This document shows, in pieces, positions 53,164-54,871 of a stretch of 64,000 nt of DNA; the first letter of the stretch is position 1; the number at the start of each line of letters is the position of its first letter. This stretch comes from Clostridiales bacterium. Its GTDB lineage: Bacteria > Bacillota > Clostridia > Christensenellales > UBA1242. The position numbers and the translations under genes are program-made. Where the stretch lies: assembly GCA_015055815.1 (NCBI GenBank), contig SVHM01000001.1, positions 105,774 through 169,773 on the forward strand, written 5' to 3'. The notes beneath the pieces are model-generated. The model searched no databases. It saw only the letters and a program-made list of their open reading frames with translations, and was not told the origin of the DNA.

Positions 53164-53336
53164 TGGTGCTGGTGCCCAGACGTGGTGCAGACAATGTAAT
53201 TGTCAAATTAGCGAAGAGCATAGCTCGAGCGTCACAGGTACGATAAGTACCAGTTGATGTATGAAATACATCGTGAACGATAGTTCACTTCAAGTCTGGT
53301 ATTAAGCAAAACAAAAAGACCCTTGCGGGTCTTATT
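53164..53336. repeat. tRNA-Leu-associated hairpin module L1 (173 bp)
   Basis: Starts with a tRNA-Leu 3'-end copy TGGTGCTGGTG; core GGTGCAG-hp-CAAATTAGCGA-hp-GAGCGTCAC; ends just before the genuine tRNA-Leu 3' end at 53337. Confidence 0.88.
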
Positions 53337-53342
53337 TGGTGC
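53283..53342. repeat. Direct repeat copy 2 (partner of 52261-52319)
   Basis: GTTCACTTCAAGTCTGGTATTAAGCAAAACAAAAAGACCCTTGCGGGTCTTATTTGGTGC. Confidence 0.95.
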
Positions 53343-53423
53343 TGGTGACCAGACTTGAACTGGTACGGTTGTTACACCGCAGGATTTTAAGTCCTGTGCG
53401 TCTGCCGATTCCGCCACACCAGC
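53337..53423 (-). tRNA. tRNA-Leu (UAA)
   Basis: GCTGGTGTGGCGGAATCGGCAGACGCACAGGACTTAAAATCCTGCGGTGTAACAACCGTACCAGTTCAAGTCTGGTCACCAGCACCA; encoded CCA, long variable arm. Confidence 0.97.
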
Positions 53424-53426
53424 AAA

Positions 53427-53501
53427 TGGAGGCACCTCTCAGATTCGAACTGAGGCATGAGGGTTTTGCAGACCCGGGCCTTACCACTTGGCTAAGGTGC
53501 C
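53427..53501 (-). tRNA. tRNA-Cys (GCA)
   Basis: GGCACCTTAGCCAAGTGGTAAGGCCCGGGTCTGCAAAACCCTCATGCCTCAGTTCGAATCTGAGAGGTGCCTCCA. Confidence 0.97.
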
Positions 53502-53627
53502 ATGATTTGAACAAAGTAATTATAACACATTAAATTTCTTATGTAAAGTATTTAAATTAAAATTTATCAATATTTTATTTATAATATGAAATAATAAAAA
53601 CAAAGGTTACAAATAAAAATGTTAAAA

Positions 53628-53681
53628 AAATCTAAATCACGTCAATAAGCGAAAAAAAGAAACCCATTAGGTTTCTATTTA
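53628..53681. repeat. Truncated tRNA-Gly module remnant (tail plus terminator)
   Basis: TCACGTCAATAAGCGAAAAAAAGAAACCCATTAGGTTTCTATTTA matches the module tail (..TCTCGTCAATAAGCGAAAAAAAGAAACCCGTTAGGTTTCTATTTA). Confidence 0.8.
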
Positions 53682-53862
53682 TGGAGCGGAAGATCGAGTT
53701 CGGTGCAGTCACGCTAGTGACAAATTAGCGATAGACTAAAGTCTGAGCGTCACTAAGCGACATTCGGAGCGAGTTCCTTTGCGTGTAAGCAAAGCATGTT
53801 CGCTAGAACATGTGAATCTCGTCTATAAGCGAAAAAAAAGAAACCCGTTAGGTTTCTATTTA
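53682..53862. repeat. tRNA-Gly-associated hairpin module G1 (181 bp)
   Basis: Starts TGGAGCGGAAG (tRNA-Gly 3' end copy); core at 53702-53753; T-arm halves GCGAGTTC and GAATCTCGTC separated by hairpins. Confidence 0.92.
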
Positions 53863-54044
53863 TGGAGCGGAAGATCGAGTTCGGTGCAGTCACGTTAGTG
53901 ACAAATTAGCGATAGACTATATAGTCTGAGCGTCACTAAGCGACATTCGGAGCGAGTTCCTTTGCGTGTAAGCAAAGCATGTTCGCTAGAACATGTGAAT
54001 CTCGTCAATAAGCGAAAAAAAGAAACCCGTTAGGTTTCTATTTA
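53863..54044. repeat. tRNA-Gly-associated hairpin module G2 (182 bp), tandem copy of G1
   Basis: Near-identical to G1; hairpin 2 is AGACTATATAGTCT instead of AGACTAAAGTCT. Confidence 0.93.
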
Positions 54045-54119
54045 TGGAGCGGAAGACGAGATTCGAACTCGCGACATTCGCCTTGGCAAGGCGACGCTCT
54101 ACCACTGAGCCACTCCCGC
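54045..54119 (-). tRNA. tRNA-Gly (GCC)
   Basis: GCGGGAGTGGCTCAGTGGTAGAGCGTCGCCTTGCCAAGGCGAATGTCGCGAGTTCGAATCTCGTCTTCCGCTCCA. Confidence 0.97.
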
Positions 54120-54120
54120 A

Positions 54121-54252
54121 TATTTAATTATTTGCGTTCGCCTTGGCAAGTCTCGCTCAACCACGCTTACTGCCGCCACTCCCGCATATTTAATTATTTG
54201 CGTTCGCCTTGGCAAGTCTCGCTCAACCACGCTTACTGCCGCCACTCCCGCA
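54121..54252 (-). repeat. Two 66-bp tandem degenerate copies of the tRNA-Gly 5' half
   Basis: Minus strand unit GGGAGTGGCGGCAGTAAGCGTGGTTGAGCGAGACTTGCCAAGGCGAACGCAAATAATTAAATATGC; CCCGCA starts at 54115, 54181 and 54247 (period 66). Confidence 0.9.
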
Positions 54253-54328
54253 AGTTTATTATATGTGTCAATGATACATTCAATAACAAATTAATATTAC
54301 CATCACCACTAATACTAAATTAATAAAA

Positions 54329-54620: not shown

Positions 54621-54770
54621 TTAGTTGCAGTTTCTAACTCTAGAAGTCTTTTTAGCTGTTGTTTTTCTAGAAGTTTTTGCATTATCTGTACTTGCTTCAG
54701 CTTTACTAGTAGTTCTATTTGAAGTTCTAGTATTACTTCTTTTTGTAGTACAATCACATTTTCTTGCCAT
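54621..54770 (-). CDS. Small basic Ser/Thr/Lys/Arg-rich protein, 49 aa
   Basis: MARKCDCTTKRSNTRTSNRTTSKAEASTDNAKTSRKTTAKKTSRVRNCN with AGGAGGTG RBS; not in the ORF track. Confidence 0.65.
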   Translation of the reverse strand: MARKCDCTTKRSNTRTSNRTTSKAEASTDNAKTSRKTTAKKTSRVRNCN

Positions 54771-54871
54771 ATTTTCACCTCCTATATTCACAAAGTAAGA
54801 TATACTTTGTACTTATATTTTGGCAAGAACACGACAAAATATTACATTTTTCAACATCCAAATATTGTAAA

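Follow-up and report, generated by a model that had tools for sequence, protein, structure and literature searches.

To our knowledge, the only described case similar to the one reported here is that of the rtT repeats of E. coli, which have been known for decades and are still unexplained. These 178-bp repeats of tyrT/tyrV, the source of the rtT RNA (Rfam RF00391), are tandem units downstream of a tRNA. Each unit consists of an inverted copy of the tRNA's own 3′ end (GGGGAAGGAT), a direct piece of the T-arm (AAGGTTCGA), hairpins and a direct copy of the 3′ end (AATCCTTCCCCCACCACCA), and the Rfam consensus pairs the inverted with the direct 3′-end copy. The rtT core was detected in 4722 of 5426 E. 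coli genomes, at 1–10 places each (median three), and among the matches listed 15 of 15 coincided with annotated RtT. In three enterobacterial records of a plasmid collection rtT adjoins purU, as it does at tyrT. No report of rtT-like units at other tRNAs was found in the literature searched, the coverage of which was incomplete.

Here we describe short modules that adjoin tRNA genes in a 64,000-nt stretch of DNA (the window; contig SVHM01000001.1 of assembly GCA_015055815.1, positions 105,774–169,773) from a Clostridiales bacterium whose genome (G000) comprises 1.31 Mb in 15 contigs. Tandem units that follow a tRNA and carry inverted and direct copies of its own 3′ end characterize both these modules and rtT. 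In contrast to the modules, rtT was seen only at tRNA-Tyr, with neither upstream mirror modules nor exchange of cores between tRNAs seen.

Structure of the modules in the window

ARAGORN places tRNA-Val, tRNA-Gly, tRNA-Cys and tRNA-Leu on the minus strand of the window. One module (L1) was found at tRNA-Leu and two (G2 and G1) at tRNA-Gly, all of them past the tRNA terminator (Table 1). Read on the tRNA strand, a module starts with the reverse complement of the 3′ side of the host's own T-arm, followed by two hairpins and then the T-arm 5′ side, likewise reverse-complemented. A short stretch from just 5′ of the T-loop, copied directly, leads into the core; past the core, the 3′ end of the tRNA with its CCA is present as a direct copy, and a terminator closes the series, so that each module has terminators both before and after it. 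The initial annotation had recognized in L1, G1 and G2 the inverted T-arm of the adjacent tRNA, opened in its loop by two hairpins, and the letters and positions it gave were right; the additional copy of anticodon-side/variable tRNA-Gly sequence that it reported in G1 and G2 was confirmed as well. The direct 3′-end copies had escaped its notice. Predicted folds of the three modules gave z-scores from −2.7 to −4.3.

Table 1. Features of the tRNA-Leu and tRNA-Gly regions. Positions refer to the window; rc, reverse complement.
Feature	Position	Strand	Details
tRNA-Leu(TAA), host of L1	53337-53423	-	ARAGORN; Rfam RF00005, 58 bits
tRNA-Leu terminator, before L1	53316-53333	-	
L1 inverted T-arm	53247-53300	-	T-arm 3′ side rc 53289-53300 (+ strand TTCAAGTCTGGT); hairpins 1 and 2, 33 nt, 53256-53288; T-stem 5′ side rc 53247-53255 (+ strand GTACCAGTT); tRNA-Leu counterpart GTACCAGTTCAAGTCTGGT
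L1 direct copy of T-stem 5′ side (CGTACC)	53237-53242	-	pairs with 53247-53255; sequence, fold
L1 core, A-type	53184-53235	-	GTGACGCTC-hairpin-TCGCTAATTTG-hairpin-CTGCACC
L1 direct copy of tRNA-Leu 3′ end	53164-53183	-	GTCTGGGCACCAGCACCA; includes CCA; read 53183 to 53164
Terminator after L1	53133-53152	-	
tRNA-Gly(GCC), host of G2 and G1	54045-54119	-	ARAGORN; Rfam RF00005, 70.8 bits
tRNA-Gly terminator, before G2	54021-54039	-	
G2 inverted T-arm	53952-54006	-	GACGAGATTC 53997-54006; two hairpins 53960-53996; GAACTCGC 53952-53959; + strand letters as in G1
G2 direct copy of tRNA-Gly anticodon 3′ side/variable loop	53940-53949	-	CGAATGTCGC; GCGACATTCG present here
G2 core, A-type	53883-53936	-	
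G2 direct copy of tRNA-Gly 3′ end	53863-53882	-	GAACTCGATCTTCCGCTCCA; includes CCA; read 53882 to 53863
G2/G1 intervening terminator	53839-53857	-	
G1 inverted T-arm with two hairpins	53769-53823	-	+ strand GCGAGTTC 53769-53776, 37 nt between, GAATCTCGTC 53814-53823
G1 copy of anticodon-side/variable tRNA-Gly sequence	53757-53766		GCGACATTCG present here
G1 core, A-type	53702-53753	-	
G1 direct copy of tRNA-Gly 3′ end	53682-53701	-	includes CCA; read 53701 to 53682
Terminator after G1	53658-53676	-	
Two tandem 66-bp degenerate tRNA-Gly 5′ halves, directly upstream of the intact gene	54120-54251 (about 54109-54260)	-	

The 66-bp repeats in front of tRNA-Gly copy positions 1–11 (acceptor strand) and the anticodon arm of the gene and are, as judged from their sequence, the upstream counterpart of the modules. 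Further upstream, ahead of tRNA-Val, the window encodes a tiny basic Ser/Thr/Arg-rich protein (MARKCDCTTKRSNTRTSNRTTSKAEASTDNAKTSRKTTAKKTSRVRNCN; 54621–54791, minus strand). A similar protein precedes the same tRNA-Val/tRNA-Gly pair in species G002 (L013, about 964–1120), and the E. coli rtT repeats likewise contain a small protamine-like ORF (tpr).

Copies of the host tRNA across species

We analysed the neighbourhoods of 175 tRNAs from six species of the genus, scoring matches of 11 nt to the cognate tRNA in the 450 nt downstream, with 200 re-pairings with non-cognate tRNAs as the control. Direct copies were present downstream of 29 of the 175 tRNAs (control mean 2.12, maximum 6) and inverted copies downstream of 15 (mean 1.36, maximum 4), while 10 tRNAs had direct copies upstream (mean 1.3, maximum 5). 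As the matches lie well above those of the re-paired controls, the modules are not a product of chance. In other genera of the family the respective values were 6/60, 3/60 and 7/60, with control means of 0.6, 0.4 and 0.9. The order's other families showed an excess that was small in number; the full anatomy was found there at a tRNA-Gly of G052 (L182), and tandem units with an inverted arm at L191 of G059. Within the genus the distribution is patchy, with downstream modules at 10/31, 8/28, 5/26, 1/28, 3/38 and 9/23 of the tRNAs of the six species.

The core of L1, G1 and G2 recurs in the same genome in a module (S1) located 800 nt downstream of tRNA-Ser, and two further modules with this core adjoin tRNA-Gln in species G009. 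Between tRNA-Ser and S1 (L004, minus strand, about 2150–1690) a small ORF encodes a membrane protein whose end resembles a zinc ribbon; this ORF is flanked by copies of the tRNA-Ser 3′ end and is possibly cargo. Truncated modules downstream of tRNA-Trp (L112 and L067) retain the inverted arm and both hairpins, end at the start of the core and have no 3′-end copy. Upstream of a tRNA-Gly of G052 (L187, positions 167–241), a tRNA-Gly copy is complete to about position 56, carries a 32-nt core directly in the T-loop and then continues with the 3′ end without CCA.

A shared core with host-matched arms

A 71-nt core, deprived of its arms, was used as the query against 120 genomes of the family. It was found in 42 of them, belonging to 21 of 42 genera, in at most eight copies per genome and in both orientations. 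Thirty core loci were fetched, 28 of which contained a tRNA, and all cores examined border tRNA sequence. The hosts are diverse: Ile, Lys, Leu(taa), Leu(caa), Asn, Thr(cgt), Thr(ggt), Ser(gga), Ser(gct) and Met. Over at least 11 nt, the end copy past the core matched the nearest tRNA in 21 of 28 cases (non-cognate 1.2%), and the inverted arm did so in 17 of 28 (non-cognate 3.2%). At tRNA 3′-end sites that vary between species, the module copy agreed with its own tRNA at 97 and with that of the other species at 4; inverted arms fitted their own tRNA better in 20 comparisons, worse in 3 and equally well in 15, the comparisons of both kinds sharing sequences and so not being independent.

The proposal of the initial annotation that the arms are customised and the core constant thus holds far outside the window, and at most of the other tRNAs examined the arms of homologous modules fit the adjacent gene. 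A single duplication of a tRNA array, which had been named as a circumstance that would speak against this reading, does not explain modules at many tRNAs in 21 genera.

The orientation of the core depends on its position. Seventeen of the 28 cores lie downstream on the same strand as the tRNA and seven upstream on the opposite strand, so that 24 obey the rule 'downstream = same strand, upstream = opposite' and four break it. The core of upstream D-loop modules and the downstream C-type core are homologous once one of them is reverse-complemented (scores of 50–72 for the best pairs, shuffle maxima about 30). In the A-type core, hairpin B covaries: 35 of 35 cells are paired (100%), four of five pairs have changed on both sides, and slid controls reach at most 54%.

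Break points and insertion at tRNA loops

From the neighbourhoods we extracted 39 module units of 98–228 bp; most units measure 100–230 bp and are non-coding, and no integrase gene was found within the modules. Two kinds of tRNA sequence make up their outer parts: a direct copy of one tRNA end, truncated at a loop, and the reverse complement of the arm in which that break lies. Fourteen of 37 direct 3′-end copies begin exactly at C56 of the T-loop, the main break, and the others in or near the anticodon loop or inside the T-stem; of 13 upstream 5′-end copies, five stop at position 18–19, the break in the D-loop being located past G19. As read from the sequence, and supported by the folds of the three window modules, the inverted pieces can pair with the direct ones as two helices, which would together restore the T-arm duplex and bring the inserts face to face where it is broken. 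A composite module at tRNA-Ile has breaks in both the anticodon loop and the T-loop. It is present in four species and, with a different T-loop core, in another genus, a persistence which suggests a kept function.

At tRNA-His of G000, an insert of about 163 bp separates G19 from U20 of the D-loop. It ends with a copy of tRNA positions 1–19, so that the tRNA stays whole. In G002, G005, G006 and G012 the site is empty and the sequence runs on uninterrupted (...GTGGATATAGTTCAGTTGGTAGAGC). Empty and filled sites together show insertion and restoration of the tRNA at this gene, and the pair is the strongest evidence for insertion. Two tandem 167-bp inserts occupy the same D-loop point of tRNA-Lys in G000. 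A 75-nt core is identical in the His insert and the nearer Lys insert, with different arms and leader; this identity could have arisen by gene conversion between existing modules instead of transposition. Precise loop insertion with the tRNA restored by a carried copy, as expected of a tRNA-targeting integrative element, was thus observed at tRNA-His and tRNA-Lys of G000, and among the interpretations first offered for the window the 'att-like' one best fits these data.

Folding and loop types of the two strands

Both strands of the modules were folded, as the initial annotation had proposed. With dinucleotide shuffles as the reference the mean z-scores were −2.32 and −2.38, and each strand was the better one in 14 of 28 cases; an apparent advantage of the antisense strand in raw energies vanished under these shuffles. 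Loop types differed between the strands. Opposite the tRNA strand, the module loops comprised 16 GNA triloops and 12 GNNA tetraloops, vs. 3 and 0 on the tRNA strand, counts that come in part from homologous hairpins. GNYA, with 7 of the 12 GNNA loops, was no rarer than GNRA, whereas on the transcribed strand the terminators of these loci had 8 GNRA and 4 UNCG loops. Module stems also contain few G.U wobbles (2 GT vs. 7 GT in terminators). The loops cGNAg and cGNNAg are unusually stable in DNA. The loop signature opposite the tRNA supports a role as DNA and is no proof of it, as part of it would also be expected of an antisense RNA and the closing pair is T-A instead of C-G in about half of the GNA loops. 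In rtT of E. coli, by contrast, the GNA loops are on the tRNA strand.

The orientation rule, which 24 of 28 cores obey, and the reversed core of upstream modules argue against a product of the tRNA transcript. Three results favour DNA: the reversed upstream core, the lack of a strand preference in folding and the GNA/GNNA loops opposite the tRNA. The earlier suggestion of a 'tRNA mimic' acting as RNA is accordingly weak, since the core flips between upstream and downstream sites, no strand folds better and the loops are unlike those of RNA terminators of the same loci. A tRNA-like cloverleaf of a module RNA was considered and dropped, upstream modules being mostly reversed. In the B/E-type cores (e.g. 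L050, L059, L084 and L099), hairpin 5 has a recurrent A.C mismatch at its base on the tRNA strand, which corresponds to G.T or G.U on the opposite strand.

Membership of the modules in a known RNA family is not supported. A permissive Rfam search of the whole window returned only tRNAs and left the modules without a family, no covariance match to RtT (RF00391) was obtained in the window at E ≤ 10, and at the gathering score the modules of 14 loci gave no family and no RtT.

Search for recombinases and carriers

No recombinase linked to the cassettes was found in the genomes searched. The IS110 transposase (PF01548) is absent from G000, G002, G006, G009 and G012; Y1 transposase (PF01797) occurs in three of ten genomes, G000 not being among them, and reverse transcriptase (RVT_1) in three of five. 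All three were ruled out as drivers by their distribution, which does not fit a RAYT/REP or IS200/IS605 derivative, nor a retron or another RT-made element. The reverse transcriptase of G000 (L123, G000:C8, about 303.8 kb) is DGR-like, lies beside a lectin-fold-like variable protein and probably belongs to a prophage. A generic Phage_integrase search detected a tyrosine recombinase in all five genomes searched; it looks like a housekeeping enzyme and in G000 stands beside lexA and miaA.

A large serine recombinase that seemed to recur at Asn modules turned out to be spurious: what matched in the ORFs was translated core, and a true gene was present only in L198 (G009:C10, about 15–1450). There the gene ends at a vestigial tRNA-Asn 3′ end, with a terminator and an Asn module beyond it, which places an integrative element between tRNA and module. 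No cores were found in the phage and viral collections searched. Other pattern matches in genome contigs look like chance, the G009 record excepted.

Discussion

We consider it about evenly balanced whether the modules are short, non-coding, non-autonomous cassettes of DNA whose folded strand is the active form in recombination at tRNA loops. Such a cassette would enter a tRNA loop by recombination, like a tiny integrative element that brings along the replaced end of its target. Its folded single strand, made up of the inverted arm, hairpins, core and direct arm, would rebuild the two half-sites of the target and would itself be what the recombination machinery sees, as with attC in integrons. 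Tandem duplication would supply later copies, and the arms may be kept equal to the tRNA by gene conversion or selection. The core in 42 of 120 genomes, the cognate arms, the empty and filled tRNA-His sites, the patchy presence and the breaks in loops support this reading, and so do the core orientation, the loop types and scarce wobbles, and the covarying hairpin B. Against it stand the absence of a linked recombinase and the inverted arm with its two hairpins, which ordinary target duplication leaves unexplained, and further the persistence of the tRNA-Ile module, the homologous hairpins behind the loop counts, the loops of rtT and the four cores that break the orientation rule. Overall, the initial interpretation is partly supported, as regards customised arms, a constant core and an att-like nature, and weakly as regards a tRNA mimic made of RNA.

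The anatomy shared with E. coli rtT, an annotated sRNA, would also suit a structured RNA that is produced by terminator read-through, ends in CCA, carries an antisense T-arm and acts either by binding the tRNA or as its mimic towards a tRNA enzyme. The strong predicted folds (z to −4.3), the covarying hairpin, the flanking terminators and the conservation of the tRNA-Ile module across genera agree with this. Nevertheless, we regard an RNA of this kind as unlikely, given the reversed core of upstream modules, the equal folding of the two strands (z −2.32 vs. −2.38, 14 of 28 each way), loops and mismatches that differ from those of RNA terminators of the same loci, and the absence of a match to any Rfam family. 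Decidedly less probable are scars of template switching, in which replication would stall at a tRNA and nascent strands switch at the arm hairpins, with gene conversion maintaining the match and no dedicated element involved. Breaks in hairpin loops, inverted next to direct copies, tandem arrays and copies that track the tRNA of their species (97 vs. 4 sites) are what this process would leave; it accounts neither for the homology of the 71-nt core across 21 genera and ten isoacceptors nor for the clean insert of about 163 bp and its new leader.

Could the split arm itself select the site? As a bipartite guide of RNA or single-stranded DNA it would pair with the tRNA loop in the manner of IS110 bridge RNA, and indeed the insertion junction finds its complement in the inverted arm, whose split coincides with the junction or adjoins it in several modules; the arms are target-specific and the cores constant. 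Yet the IS110 transposase is absent from five genomes, the direct arm results automatically from insertion and need not guide, and no donor loop was identified, which makes programmable targeting of this type very improbable. Beyond the cassette reading favoured above, a broader and rather doubtful extension is that of tRNA-targeted cassettes throughout the family, whose arms would be a re-programmable address, either copied on arrival or directing it, via a folded single-stranded DNA or RNA and an enzyme, with rtT as a fixed relic.

If the cassette reading is true, the tRNA genes of a large bacterial family of small-genome Clostridia would host an undescribed class of element with locally matched flanks, which raises the question of how one element gains or keeps an address that differs from site to site. 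The E. coli rtT repeats would then have a wide context for the first time, and partial false tRNA copies would have to be considered in annotation and in studies of tRNA fragments.

Comparison with known systems

With the bridge RNA of IS110/IS1111 the modules share a bipartite sequence that matches the target junction. They differ in the absence of the transposase from five genomes and in that no second loop was identified, and identity with IS110 bridge RNA is not supported. MITEs and RAYT/REP elements are likewise short, non-autonomous, hairpin-rich and multicopy, whereas the cores examined here all border a tRNA and Y1 transposase occurs in only three of ten genomes. Closer to the modules in their mode of integration are tRNA-targeting islands and IMEs, which also break the T-loop or anticodon loop, restore the tRNA end by a carried copy and generate direct repeats of about 21 nt; the modules differ from them by their size of 100–230 bp, the lack of an integrase gene, the inverted arm with hairpins and the use of the same core at several tRNAs. 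Compared with integron attC cassettes, the modules carry no cargo and have arms made of tRNA sequence, and as to a preferred strand, their loop signature lies on one strand and their folding z-scores are equal on both. In the reading favoured here, modules and integron cassettes would use one strand in preference to the other, fold it so that its inverted arms restore a recombination site, and form arrays.
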